NCBI GenBank assembly: GCA_000525675.1
Contig: CP002190.1
Span: forward strand, 1,550,001-1,614,000
Direction of reading: 5' to 3'
From: Bdellovibrio bacteriovorus W
GTDB lineage: Bacteria > Bdellovibrionota > Bdellovibrionia > Bdellovibrionales > Bdellovibrionaceae
DNA length: 64,000 bases
Position 1 is the first letter of the stretch. Each line of letters begins with the position of its first letter. The notes beneath the pieces were generated by a model. It did no database searches and was not told the DNA's origin. It saw only the letters and a program-made list of their open reading frames with translations. Below are positions 10,522 through 14,522 of the stretch, piece after piece. The translations under genes and the position numbers were made by a program.

Positions 10522-11523
10522 ATGGAAAAAGGTTGGTTAGGTCTCCCCTATCACACAATAGCAGAACACTACAATAAACTCTTTGGCGAGAAGGTCTATA
10601 AGATTCCCGTTGCCGTGGTTGATGATTGTCCAAACCGTCGCGGCCTTAAGGGAATGCAGACTTGCGTATTTTGTGATGTCTGGGGATCTGCTGCCAATGC
10701 AGAATCCTTAACGATGGAGCTTCGTCAGCAGATCGAAACCTTCCATGGTCGCATTAGTAAACGCTATAATGCCAAAGCCTTTCTAATCTACTTTCAAGCC
10801 TATACAAACACTTTCACCAAGGTCTCAGCTCTGAGACATAACTTCGACGTGGCATTAAGCTATCCTTGGGTGAAAGGCTTCACGGTCGGCACACGCCCAG
10901 ACTGTCTTTCAAAGTCCGTTTTGGATTTGTGGCAAGAGTATCACGAGAAAAGTTTCGTGGCCGTAGAGTTAGGTGTACAGAGTTTCAACGATAAACAACT
11001 TGAATTCATGCGCAGAGGTCACACAGCAGAGGACTCCATCAAAGCTGTTCATAAGATTGCTGAGAGCACAAAGGTCGATTTAGGAATTCATTTGATCTTC
11101 GGAAACCCCGGCGAAACTGATGAGCAAATCATTGAAACAGCTAAGATTGTGAACGACTTGCCGATCACAAACGTGAAGCTTCACAATCTTCATGTGTTAA
11201 CGCAAACTCCCCTGGAAGAGATTTACCATAGGGGTGAATTCGATCCCATCGACTTTGAAACCTATGCGCGCAGAGTGGAGCTTTTCATTCAACACCTCAA
11301 CCCTCGCTTTGCCCTTCATCGCTTGGCAGCCTTTGCTCCGCGAGAAGAAGAGTTAGTTGCTCCTGCATGGACCGGCGATAAAATGCGCACACATCAGGGT
11401 ATTATTGACTATATACGGAGCCATTCTGCTTATCAGTCGCAGTTTTTTGCACCTCAATCCCAAGAAGAATCCCTCGCGCAAGAATTCTTGCGTCGAAAAT
11501 CCATCCCACTTGCGGAACTTTAG
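10522..11523 (+). CDS. TIGR01212/YhcC-family radical SAM protein
   Basis: This 333-residue protein carries the YhcC-type N terminus (LFGEKVYKIPVAVVDDCPNR) and the cluster motif C-x11-C-x2-C (CPNRRGLKGMQTCVFC) that should bind a [4Fe-4S] cluster for SAM cleavage. Downstream are family segments GTRPDCLSKSVLDLW, VELGVQSFNDKQLEFM, HLIFGNPGETDEQI and KLHNLHVLTQTPLE, covering the TIM-barrel. The reaction of YhcC proteins is not firmly known. ATG at 10522 is chosen by family length; the TTG at 10486 would add 12 unmatched residues. It is divergent from the MnmC-like methylase, which raises a tRNA-related role, but only by proximity. Confidence 0.88.
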   Translation: MEKGWLGLPYHTIAEHYNKLFGEKVYKIPVAVVDDCPNRRGLKGMQTCVFCDVWGSAANAESLTMELRQQIETFHGRISKRYNAKAFLIYFQAYTNTFTKVSALRHNFDVALSYPWVKGFTVGTRPDCLSKSVLDLWQEYHEKSFVAVELGVQSFNDKQLEFMRRGHTAEDSIKAVHKIAESTKVDLGIHLIFGNPGETDEQIIETAKIVNDLPITNVKLHNLHVLTQTPLEEIYHRGEFDPIDFETYARRVELFIQHLNPRFALHRLAAFAPREEELVAPAWTGDKMRTHQGIIDYIRSHSAYQSQFFAPQSQEESLAQEFLRRKSIPLAEL

Positions 11524-11802
11524 GTTTCTGCCTAAGGCCGCAGGGCCAAATTTAAGATCTTGTAAGATCTGTACAGATTGAACTCCTCAAAAAACAGCTA
11601 AAGACAGAGTTTTCAAGCTGGACTTAAGTTTTGAGAGGAAGATTTTAAAATTCTTGCCCTAAATGTTTGCAGTACTTCCCTGTCAAGAATATTGGGAAAG
11701 TGCTTAATTGATGGGCAACGTCACAGAAAACTTAGCGTTAAATGCAAAAATGTAGTTGATTCTTTGTCGAATCCCTTACAAAGTTGAAATTGAGATCGAC
11801 AC

Positions 11803-11953
11803 CGCCTTATGGACAAGGCGCCTGCATCGAACCCCTAGATATAGGGGTTACCTTAGAAACTCAGTTCAACGACTGAGACATAATAAGGAACAGCGTAGGG
11901 GAGGTTTGCGGAACTAAAAAGCCGAACACATCGCTAAGGATTAGCACTCAGTC
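11803..11953 (+). promoter_or_regulatory. Multi-hairpin nrdA leader with mutually exclusive pairings
   Basis: Successive stems: CGCCTT/AAGGCG (11803-11820), AACCCCTA/TAGGGGTT (11830-11849), CTCAGT/ACTGAG (11860-11877), an outer AGCG/CGCT (11892-11935) enclosing GTTTG/CGAAC (11904-11927), and GCTAA/TTAGC (11933-11945). The strand 11871-11877 GACTGAG can pair with 11860-11865 or, over 7 bp, with CTCAGTC at 11947-11953. CGCT is shared between two stems. Such alternatives are typical of riboswitches and attenuators. I do not recognise a known class. Confidence 0.45.
11830..11849. promoter_or_regulatory. NrdR-box-like palindrome
   Basis: AACCCCTAGATATAGGGGTT contains CTAGATATAG, which matches 9 of 10 core positions of the NrdR box (CwAtATaTwG within acaCwAtATaTwGtgt, consensus from memory). 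NrdR represses ribonucleotide reductase genes when dATP is high. The outer bases are C/G rather than the usual aca/tgt, and I found no second box at the usual spacing, so this is tentative. Confidence 0.35.
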
Positions 11954-12033
11954 TCAAACAATACATACATTATTATACCACAACCAAAGCCTGAACTTTT
12001 ACGAGGGGTAAATTTTCGGGAGGGATTTTTTTT

Positions 12034-12050
12034 GCCCAAAAGGATTGGGC
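12034..12050 (+). promoter_or_regulatory. Hairpin adjoining the nrdA ribosome-binding site
   Basis: GCCCAA / TTGGGC with loop AAGGA ends one base before AGAGGGG, the nrdA ribosome site, and is preceded by eight T. The loop purines could affect ribosome loading. Confidence 0.4.
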
Positions 12051-12064
12051 AGAGGGGATACATC

Positions 12065-14476
12065 ATGTTGGAAACAACAGCTCATGTGATGAGAGTGAAA
12101 AAGAGAGACGGCAGCCTAGAGCCAGTAGACGTTACGAAAATCGTAGAACGTGTTACTCGCAACTGCCAGGGTTTAACACAAGTAGATCCACTACGTGTTG
12201 CAACTCGCGCGATCAGCGGTCTCTATGACGGTGCTACAACAAATGAATTGGATAACCTTTGTATCCAAACAGCTTCTTTGCTTATTGGTGAAGAACCTGA
12301 ATACTCTCGCCTTGCGGCTCGCCTTCTATCTATCTATATTGATGAAGAAGTTCGCTCACAAAAAATCCAGTCTTTTGCAGACTCTGTAACTTTTGGTTAC
12401 AACAACGGTCTTTTAGCTAAGACAACTTATGACTTCGTAGAAACTCACAAAGCGGCTCTTTGCGCGGCTATTGAGCCATACCGCACTGATCGTTTTGAGT
12501 ATTTCGGTCTTAGAACTGTTTATGACCGCTATCTATTAAAAAACCCATCTTCTCGTCAGGTTTTTGAAACTCCACAGTACTTCTTTATGAGAGTTGCTTG
12601 TGGTCTTGCACAAAACGTTGATGAAGCTATTGAATTCTATCGTTTGATTTCTTCACACGATTACTTGGCTTCAACTCCAACCCTTTTCAACTCTGGAACC
12701 CTTCGTCCACAGATGTCTTCTTGCTATCTGTTGGATTCTCCAGAAGATGATTTGAAAGCTATCTACAATAAATATACAGACATTGCCCTTCTGTCTAAGT
12801 TTGCTGGTGGTATTGGCGTTGCTTACTCTCGCGTACGTTCACGTGGTTCTTTAATCAAAGGAACTAACGGTCACTCTAACGGAATTATCCCATGGTTGAA
12901 AACGATGGACTCTTCTATCGCTGCTGTAAACCAAGGTGGTAAGCGTAAAGGTGCAGCGTGTGTGTACCTAGAGACTTGGCATGCGGACATCGAGGAGTTC
13001 CTTGAACTTCGCGACAACACAGGTGACGAAGCTAAACGTACTCATAACTTGAATCTTGCGAACTGGGTTCCAGATCTATTTATGAAACGTGTAGAAACTG
13101 ACGGAATGTGGTCTTTATTTGATCCAAACAAAGTTCCTCATTTCGTCGACACATTCGGCCCTGAGTTTGAAGCTGCTTATGAAAAAGCAGAAGCCGAAGG
13201 TATGTTCGTGAAGCAAGTAAAAGCTCGTGAACTTTACTCTCGTATGATGAAAACTCTTGCGCAAACTGGCAACGGTTGGATGACGTTTAAAGATGCTGCC
13301 AACATGAAAGCGAATCAAACTGGTGAACCAGGAAACGTGATTCACCTTTCCAACCTGTGCACAGAGATTCTTGAAGTTACTTCTAAAGATGAAACTGCTG
13401 TTTGTAACTTAGGTTCTATCAACCTAAGCCGTCACGTTGAAAATGGCTCTTTCAATTTCGAAAAACTTGCGAAATCTGTTCGCACGGCTGTGAAGTATCT
13501 AGATCGCGTTGTTGATATCAACTTCTACCCTATTCAAACTGCTCAGGACTCTAACCATAAATGGCGTCCAGTTGGTTTAGGTGTAATGGGTCTTCAGGAT
13601 GCTTTCTTCCAATTGAAACTTCCATTTGACTCTGCGGCAGCACGTGATCTTTCTGCAAAAATCCAAGAAGAAATCTATTACAATGCCCTTGTAACTTCTT
13701 GTGAGCTTGCTGAAAAACACGGTGCGCACGGTGCTTTCGAACAAACGAAAGCTGCTAAAGGTCTTCTTCAGTACGACCTTTGGGGTGTAACGCCATCTCA
13801 GCCAGAGCGTTTTGAAAAACTTAAAGAGCGCATTAAACAATTTGGTTTAAGAAACTCTTTGATGATTGCTATTGCTCCGACTGCAACTATCGCATCTATC
13901 GTGGGTTGCTACGAAGCTATCGAACCACAAGTTTCTAACTTGTTTAAACGCGAGACTCTTTCTGGAGAGTTTATGCAAATCAACAAGTACCTAGTTGCTG
14001 ACTTGAAAGCTCTAGGACTATGGAACGAAGACGTTCGTAACGAAATCAAACTTCATGACGGTTCAATCCAAGAAGTCGCTGCAATTCCACCGGAGTTGAA
14101 AGAGCTTTACAGAACTGTTTGGGAAATCCCAATGAAGTCTTTGATCGATATGGCAGCTGCTCGCGGAGCCTTCATCGACCAAGCTCAATCTTTGAACTTG
14201 TTCATGGAAAGCCCTACAATCGGAAAAGTTTCCTCAATGTACATGTACGCTTGGAAACAAGGTATTAAAACGACTTATTACCTACGCTCTCGTCCTGCGA
14301 CGAAAATCGCTAAAACGACGGTTCGTATGAATAATAATGGAACGGTTGCAGCTTCTAGCACTCCACAAACAATGGATGCTTCAGCGCCAGCTCCAGAAGC
14401 TAAAAAGACTTACACTGACGAAGAAGTGATTGCTTGTTCTCTGGAAAATCCAGAGGCATGCGAAGCTTGTCAGTAA
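12065..14476 (+). CDS. nrdA: Class I ribonucleoside-diphosphate reductase, alpha subunit
   Basis: This 803-residue subunit reduces NDPs to dNDPs with NrdB. The start is ATG 12065 with GAGGGG 8 nt upstream; an upstream TTG (12032) lies in the leader hairpin. An ATP-cone occupies about 5-95 and suggests dATP feedback. Active-site residues are visible: Cys220 (SSCYLLD), Asn430-Cys432-Glu434 (NLCTE), Cys447 (AVCNLGSINL) and the Tyr738-Tyr739 radical-transfer pair (TTYYLRSRP). The redox Cys pair at the C terminus is Cys799/Cys802 (EACEACQ). All features fit an active class I enzyme. nrdB follows 88 bases later, with a terminator between them. Confidence 0.97.
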   Translation: MLETTAHVMRVKKRDGSLEPVDVTKIVERVTRNCQGLTQVDPLRVATRAISGLYDGATTNELDNLCIQTASLLIGEEPEYSRLAARLLSIYIDEEVRSQKIQSFADSVTFGYNNGLLAKTTYDFVETHKAALCAAIEPYRTDRFEYFGLRTVYDRYLLKNPSSRQVFETPQYFFMRVACGLAQNVDEAIEFYRLISSHDYLASTPTLFNSGTLRPQMSSCYLLDSPEDDLKAIYNKYTDIALLSKFAGGIGVAYSRVRSRGSLIKGTNGHSNGIIPWLKTMDSSIAAVNQGGKRKGAACVYLETWHADIEEFLELRDNTGDEAKRTHNLNLANWVPDLFMKRVETDGMWSLFDPNKVPHFVDTFGPEFEAAYEKAEAEGMFVKQVKARELYSRMMKTLAQTGNGWMTFKDAANMKANQTGEPGNVIHLSNLCTEILEVTSKDETAVCNLGSINLSRHVENGSFNFEKLAKSVRTAVKYLDRVVDINFYPIQTAQDSNHKWRPVGLGVMGLQDAFFQLKLPFDSAAARDLSAKIQEEIYYNALVTSCELAEKHGAHGAFEQTKAAKGLLQYDLWGVTPSQPERFEKLKERIKQFGLRNSLMIAIAPTATIASIVGCYEAIEPQVSNLFKRETLSGEFMQINKYLVADLKALGLWNEDVRNEIKLHDGSIQEVAAIPPELKELYRTVWEIPMKSLIDMAAARGAFIDQAQSLNLFMESPTIGKVSSMYMYAWKQGIKTTYYLRSRPATKIAKTTVRMNNNGTVAASSTPQTMDASAPAPEAKKTYTDEEVIACSLENPEACEACQ

Positions 14477-14487
14477 CCCTCAAAACA

Positions 14488-14522
14488 AAAAGGCCCGCTC
14501 TTGGGCGGAGCCTTTTTTTTTA
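14488..14522 (+). terminator. Intrinsic terminator between nrdA and nrdB
   Basis: AGGC-CCGC-TCTTG-GGCGGA-GCCT hairpin followed by nine T. It may be partial, letting some transcripts enter nrdB. Confidence 0.88.

Follow-up and report, generated by a model that had tools for sequence, protein, structure and literature searches.

A conserved, structured leader upstream of nrdA in Bdellovibrio carries a predicted NrdR operator, a terminator-like hairpin, and a hairpin predicted to pair the Shine-Dalgarno sequence

The window analyzed here (64,000 nucleotides of contig CP002190.1 of Bdellovibrio bacteriovorus W) lies entirely within the single contig of a 3.0-Mb genome. The nrdA leader is located between an open reading frame ending at position 11523, which by its appearance may encode a radical SAM protein, and the ATG codon of nrdA at position 12065 (open reading frame list). 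An nrdA-like gene was present in 99/99 relatives, and 85 upstream regions were collected, one of which belongs to a second, more distant ribonucleotide reductase (RNR) of genome G023. The locus contains the following features.

11545..11784, + strand: conserved upstream DNA with putative promoter/operator blocks AATTTAAGATC-N2-TGTAAGATCAGTACAG and GATGAGCAACGTCACAAAAAAGTTGGCGTTA (Bdellovibrio consensus)
11790..11799, + strand: 5' strand of stem P1, pairing with 11948-11957
11804..11819, + strand: hairpin P2, GCCTTATGGACAAGGC, 99 to 100% paired in the alignments, U.G pairs included
11832-11847, no strand assigned: P3, predicted NrdR box (operator DNA), CCCCTAGATATAGGGG, from conservation of the box and the presence of nrdR in the genome
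11851..11888, + strand: variable arm P3b; its inner hairpin (11859-11877) is specific to this species, being found in none of the other 23 Bdellovibrio genomes
11898..11931, + strand: conserved GGGGAGG and, after it, an arm that varies (called P4 in relatives, where it is of the GGUU/GACC type), from alignment by eye
11933..11945, + strand: hairpin P5, loop AGGAU, with a stem that changes on both sides between genera
11948..11957, + strand: 3' strand of stem P1, pairing with 11790-11799
11984..12024, + strand: H6, an extended, terminator-like hairpin tipped by an invariant CGAGGGG
12026..12033, + strand: run of eight U, candidate terminator tail and/or anti-Shine-Dalgarno strand
12025..12059, + strand: H7, a U8-GCCC ... 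GGGC-AGAGGGG stem hiding the Shine-Dalgarno sequence, with GGA in the loop, from folds and alignment
12051..12058, + strand: nrdA Shine-Dalgarno sequence, AGAGGGGA
12065..14476, + strand: nrdA, large subunit of class I RNR; start codon and N-terminus kept in Bdellovibrio

The original prediction was that of a regulatory leader comprising at least five serial stems, one strand of which would switch between two partners. All of these stems were found where they had been placed, and the region folds beyond the expectation from dinucleotide shuffles: the folding energy of 11785-11965 was −52.5 kcal/mol versus −36.4 kcal/mol (standard deviation, 3.75) for 200 shuffles (z = −4.29), and that of 11785-12075 was −83.3 kcal/mol versus a shuffle mean of −62.3 kcal/mol (z = −4.73), neither value being equaled by any shuffle. 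One of the five stems, P3, coincides with the predicted NrdR operator palindrome and is uninformative on RNA, and the list lacked both the outer stem P1 and H6, the most strongly covarying hairpin. Searches of Rfam at gathering and permissive thresholds returned chance-level matches only, in the window and in the corresponding loci of nine relatives, in agreement with the prediction that no known riboswitch class fits. Judged from its sequence, the leader belongs to a general type that is already known, that of structured leaders with a terminator and a Shine-Dalgarno hairpin, with no Rfam family of its own.

Conservation of the leader in relatives had been proposed as a check, and a structured leader was found at nrdA in 24/24 Bdellovibrio genomes. 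Comparison of DNA sequences detected the leader in 22 of the 66 genomes of the family around Bdellovibrio, mostly through its two ends. Covariance models matched upstream of nrdA in all 24 Bdellovibrio genomes, and the 5' part was matched in 45/66 genomes of the family. At E values of up to 1, model R1 matched 47 of the 140 genomes of the order, namely, all 24 Bdellovibrio genomes, 21 other members of the family, and two genomes outside the family with weak matches (E values of 0.2 and 0.5). Within the family, the R1 matches are located upstream of nrdA, a weak match in G054 (E value of 0.057) having no assigned place. Model R2 matched all Bdellovibrio genomes and three other genomes of the family at E values below 1e-5, the remaining matches being at 0.008 or weaker. 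Among 80 nrdA loci from named genomes, the models matched five loci of the Bdellovibrionaceae type (L154-L158) and none of the 75 others. The predicted leader is conserved, specific to nrdA, and equipped with an apparent expression platform (terminator-like H6 and Shine-Dalgarno-sequestering H7); the proposed switch strand did not stand, as described below.

The P3 palindrome is best read as operator DNA, that is, as a predicted NrdR box, rather than as an RNA hairpin. Applying a threshold of at least 12 of 14 consensus positions, a box was present in 57/57 upstream regions of the family, in 2/28 regions outside the family, and in 2/570 shuffles, the consensus having been drawn up after the family sequences had been seen. 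In relatives, CCCCTAGATATAGGGG is replaced by CCACTAGATATAGTGG, ACACTATATATAGTGA, and other sequences. The box contains a conserved C (11835) and a conserved G (11844), nine bases apart, in columns that are both invariant in the Bdellovibrio alignment; NrdR boxes are characterized by such a C and G in a published description (PMC9110341). A gene encoding NrdR (TIGR00244) is present in the genome (G000:C1:781488-781922; 190.5 bits, above the cutoff) and was found in 86/99 relatives. The box pattern has a single further match in the 3.0-Mb genome. Since DNA palindromes change symmetrically, the covariation seen in P3 does not speak for an RNA structure. NrdR boxes and similar operator palindromes can thus masquerade as covarying RNA hairpins in leader surveys. 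Like the NrdR operators of other bacterial RNR operons, the element is a 16-bp A+T-centered palindrome upstream of an RNR gene, with the C and G at the same interval and nrdR in the genome, and by these marks the operator itself appears to be of an already known kind. Unlike these operators, it is located 218 to 233 bp upstream of the start codon, and Bdellovibrio has one strong box, the degenerate candidate partner of which overlaps an RNA-like hairpin. A second, distant RNR-like gene of the same genome (G000:C1:863401-865059; 27% identity to NrdA) has no NrdR-box match nearby. At the score used, no NrdR box was detected upstream of the second RNR large subunit of G023, which is carried by another contig (G023:C2:134538-136868; 65% identity to NrdA), and neither R1 nor R2 matched there.

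The candidate partner would lie at P2. A CTTAT-like 5' arm of P2 is found 25 to 27 nucleotides before the NrdR box in 43/57 regions, and at exactly 26 nucleotides in 38/57; the sequence of the linker is not conserved, and its length is fixed. Such constant spacing points to a possible overlap of P2 with a degenerate second NrdR box. A C/G pair at position −32 from the box was found in 24/24 Bdellovibrio regions and in 31/57 regions overall, and position −29 also scored (20/57 regions, 8 genera). A weight matrix search for a second box detected no strong partner in Bdellovibrio. Elsewhere, pairs of boxes are 31 bp apart in G070, G076 (another family), and G063, as in other NrdR operators, and 41 bp apart in G043, and a box-like 16-mer is present at −31 in five genomes of another genus (g19). 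Spacers of 14 to 17 and 24 to 27 bp are bound well by NrdR according to PMC12051234.

Upstream of the leader, 20-nucleotide blocks of the region 11545-11784 are 0.68 to 0.97 conserved in 17 to 18 Bdellovibrio genomes, so that this DNA roughly equals the leader in conservation. The search for covariation upstream of 11785 revealed no helix with more than one compensated pair. Conservation of about 240 bp without covarying helices would place the boundary between the promoter and the transcribed DNA near 11780. The conserved block is probably an unusually large promoter/operator region, with a probable transcription start close to its 3' end. A simple scan of 11500-12100 detected no sigma-70-like promoter. 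The one start-site map found for Bdellovibrio covers 140 promoters of the attack phase only (Karunker et al. 2013, PMC3627812), and a text search of this article retrieved no occurrence of "nrd." In several genera (e.g., L073, L059, L061, and L064), a shared motif AACT(A/G)GACTTT follows the NrdR box and precedes the start codon. A block resembling it, CT(A/G)GACTTTGGTTTTACGAGGTAAAA, is found far upstream in Bdellovibrio (about 11617-11645).

The 5' domain of the leader is closed by P1. Pairing of the structure reaches 98.3% across the 21 Bdellovibrio sequences of alignment A1, versus 36 to 44% when it is slid along the alignment; P1 itself is 100% paired, with one pair varying between U.G, C-G, G.U, and U-A. 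In the family alignment of 40 sequences, which was fitted to the model and hence leans towards the structure, 96.2% of cells are paired (slid controls, 37 to 45%), and double-sided changes are present in 15/22 pairs, including 5/5 outer pairs of P1. The stem of P5 appears as GCUA/UAGC, GACC/GGUC, or GGCA/UGCC across genera, with AGGAY or AGAAY in the loop in most sequences. For single genomes, a duplex-energy test of P1, which is dominated by long gapped duplexes, gave no signal in 52 regions, and a longest-helix test was weak per genome (lowest p value of 0.007, in G048 and G056). Thus, P1 is unconvincing in single genomes and is supported by the alignments, of which the widest was fitted to the model. 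A separate small RNA is not favored, because no U run was seen after the 3' strand of P1.

Within this domain, the 24 aligned Bdellovibrio leaders differ greatly in the number of nucleotides that separate the NrdR box from P5. In the window, the stem of P3b is formed by 11851-11855 and 11884-11888. The original prediction assigned two exclusive partners to the strand GACTGAG (11871-11877), and both pairings do exist, with ACTCAG at 11859 and with CTCAGTC at 11947. They are private to the species of the window, being part of an insertion. The one other exact GACTGAG among the 24 Bdellovibrio leaders is located elsewhere, inside H6 of G013, and G006 has a looser variant only. Since the GACTGAG hairpin is limited to this species, the predicted switch is not a conserved feature.

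H6 is the part of the leader in which covariation is strongest. In alignment A2 (24 sequences, 23 distinct), 9 of its 10 stem pairs show changes on both sides, CGAGGGG is present in 24/24 rows, and the whole structure is 94.2% paired, versus 41 to 70% when slid. The H6 hairpin of the window has a folding energy of −12.3 kcal/mol (mean of 12 shuffles, −1.1 kcal/mol). Following removal of 7 near-duplicates from the 24 Bdellovibrio genomes, a stem separated from the U run by a single base was found in 15 of the remaining 17, at −10.8 to −22.6 kcal/mol (shuffle means of −0.3 to −3.6 kcal/mol, 12 shuffles each); the closing stem is absent in G015 and G024. Among 13 leaders from other genera, chosen by eye, 6 have a terminator-like stem (−9.4 to −21.7 kcal/mol), 5 have no U run, and 2 have a stem no better than shuffles. 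A simple terminator scan of 11500-12100 detected no terminator-like site.

The tip of H6 was also used as a search pattern. Hairpins of at least 8 pairs with GAGGG in the loop occurred in 38/85 upstream regions, and 17 control 5-mers gave 0 to 11 occurrences except AGGGG, which overlaps the motif and gave 36; as related sequences were counted singly, these counts are not an independent statistic. These hairpins were found in Bdellovibrio, in g9, g17, and g20, and sporadically in other families, and the cutoff missed the H6 of the window owing to mismatches. Exact matches to the H6 motif in the 24 Bdellovibrio genomes are all at nrdA with one exception (G017:C1:1072077). One-mismatch matches occur elsewhere in these genomes, as they do for a reversed control pattern. 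The loop of H6 (12002-12008) repeats the Shine-Dalgarno motif of nrdA, GAGGGG, even in other genera whose stems are very different, and this copy is mostly open in single-sequence folds of 19 Bdellovibrio leaders (0.83). It might act as a decoy for ribosomes, as a standby site, or as a site for a protein.

H6 resembles the intrinsic terminators of attenuators in being a stable hairpin that adjoins 7 to 8 U, is preceded by a folded 5' domain, and is followed by the start codon. It differs from them in its rather A+U-rich stem with internal loops and in its invariant GAGGG loop, and no antiterminator was found for the nrdA leader: a search for conserved alternative helices produced short candidates of low complexity, none of which was identified as an antiterminator. 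The U7-GCCC stretch can also pair with the 3' half of H6 (GGGUGAAA) in 95% of cells, a pairing that is lost in G013 and G024, as judged by eye.

In H7, this U run, together with GCCC, is predicted to pair with GGGCAGAGGGG, and 98.7% of the alignment cells of the hairpin are paired. A further hairpin had been predicted at the ribosome site of nrdA, and H7 does end over the Shine-Dalgarno sequence. The probability that this sequence is unpaired is 0.01 in the window and 0.01 to 0.40 across 19 Bdellovibrio leaders folded as single sequences, so that it is mostly paired in 19/19. Covariation says little about H7, because H7 hardly varies. The Shine-Dalgarno motif GAGGG is itself ordinary in the window (6/50 crude open reading frames).

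Together, these observations led us to a two-tier model, in which NrdR controls initiation and the leader attenuates nrdA; we give it an even chance of being correct. At the DNA level, NrdR loaded with dATP and ATP would bind 11832-11847 and repress nrdA at high dATP, probably with the help of a weaker partner site that overlaps P2, some three helix turns further upstream. At the RNA level, we infer a start just upstream of P1 (about 11780-11790), producing a leader of about 280 nucleotides, the 5' part of which would fold into the P1-closed domain containing P2, the variable arms, and P5. H6 and its run of 7 to 8 U would then act as an intrinsic terminator. After read-through, formation of H7 from the same U run and GCCC would hide the ribosome site and limit translation. 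Full expression of nrdA would require a trigger acting on the leader to block H6 and/or open H7, and this release might plausibly be timed to the onset of growth-phase replication.

Some of this evidence would fit a ligand riboswitch, an extension of the original prediction, in which P1, P2, and P5 form an aptamer, perhaps for a deoxynucleotide, and UCUC of the P1 3' strand moves between P1 and either GGGAU by the U run or the Shine-Dalgarno sequence. A covarying P1-closed domain followed by terminator and Shine-Dalgarno hairpins is what such a device would look like, and the exchange pairings are available in 18 species (AGUCUC of the P1 3' strand with GGGAUU in 98% of cells; GUCUC with GGGA(C/U) of the Shine-Dalgarno stretch in 100%). 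However, these alternative helices are short and of low complexity, the element is found at nrdA and at no other gene of the pathway, Rfam offers no class for it, and outside Bdellovibrio there is no clear conserved core except P2, which may be an operator, and P5. We therefore consider a riboswitch improbable. A more specific version, a riboswitch-like attenuator sensing nucleotides or prey-derived precursors in series with NrdR and gating nrdA at entry into the growth phase, is quite improbable. A protein could read the same hairpins: CsrA, which recognizes an ANGGA core, would repress translation through GGA motifs in the P5 loop, in the H7 loop, and close to the Shine-Dalgarno sequence, and its release would open the ribosome site. 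In line with leaders controlled by CsrA/RsmA as commonly described, csrA is present (69/69 relatives), and GGA is located in hairpin loops and near the Shine-Dalgarno sequence (24/24 rows for H7; 18/21 for P5, where AAGGAU fits the core). Unlike in such leaders, GGA is not kept in all members, since it is replaced in the P5 loop by GAA in three Bdellovibrio leaders and by GAA, AGA, or UGA in some leaders from other genera, many leaders carry UGA in P2, and, as judged by eye, several other genera lack a GGA loop in the H7 region. We consider control by CsrA unlikely.

If control were mostly exerted on DNA, the palindromes would be operators and transcription would start downstream, for example, after the A+T-rich stretch at about 11965-11980, leaving only H6 and H7 in the mRNA. 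This is consistent with the NrdR box, with the fixed distance of P2 despite a varying linker, and with an A+T-rich block of the TATATATT type that is kept before H6 in Bdellovibrio. It leaves the compensated changes of P1 and P5 between genera unexplained, no −35-like partner was seen for the A+T-rich block, and the strong DNA conservation is upstream of 11780; we regard it as distinctly unlikely. In another alternative, H7 would passively hide the Shine-Dalgarno sequence, or act as a fourU-like thermometer, and the U run would be kept for that pairing. In almost all of the 23 distinct rows, the U run does pair with AGAGGGG, several of the pairs being U.G, as the U run of fourU thermometers and other sequestering hairpins pairs with the Shine-Dalgarno sequence. 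Unlike fourU thermometers as commonly described, H7 is clamped by GCCC/GGGC and precedes a housekeeping gene. This explanation, which accounts neither for a covarying H6 separated from the U run by a single base nor for the GAGGG loop kept in other genera, is very improbable.

The two-tier model would place a conserved attenuator and a Shine-Dalgarno clamp behind the NrdR operator, adding an RNA layer to RNR control, which is usually framed as repression by NrdR together with allosteric control of the enzyme. Its hosts do not replicate during the attack phase, with which they alternate bursts of DNA synthesis within their prey, and the element is a short, testable region. Titles and opening abstract lines of open-access articles on RNR or nrdA with riboswitches, attenuation, CsrA, leaders, or Shine-Dalgarno sequences mentioned no such nrdA leader, and a search of open-access articles on Bdellovibrio and NrdR retrieved nothing. 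Downstream of the gene, a terminator-like hairpin with a T run is located between nrdA and nrdB (14490-14521); the two subunits may thus be produced in unequal amounts from one message.
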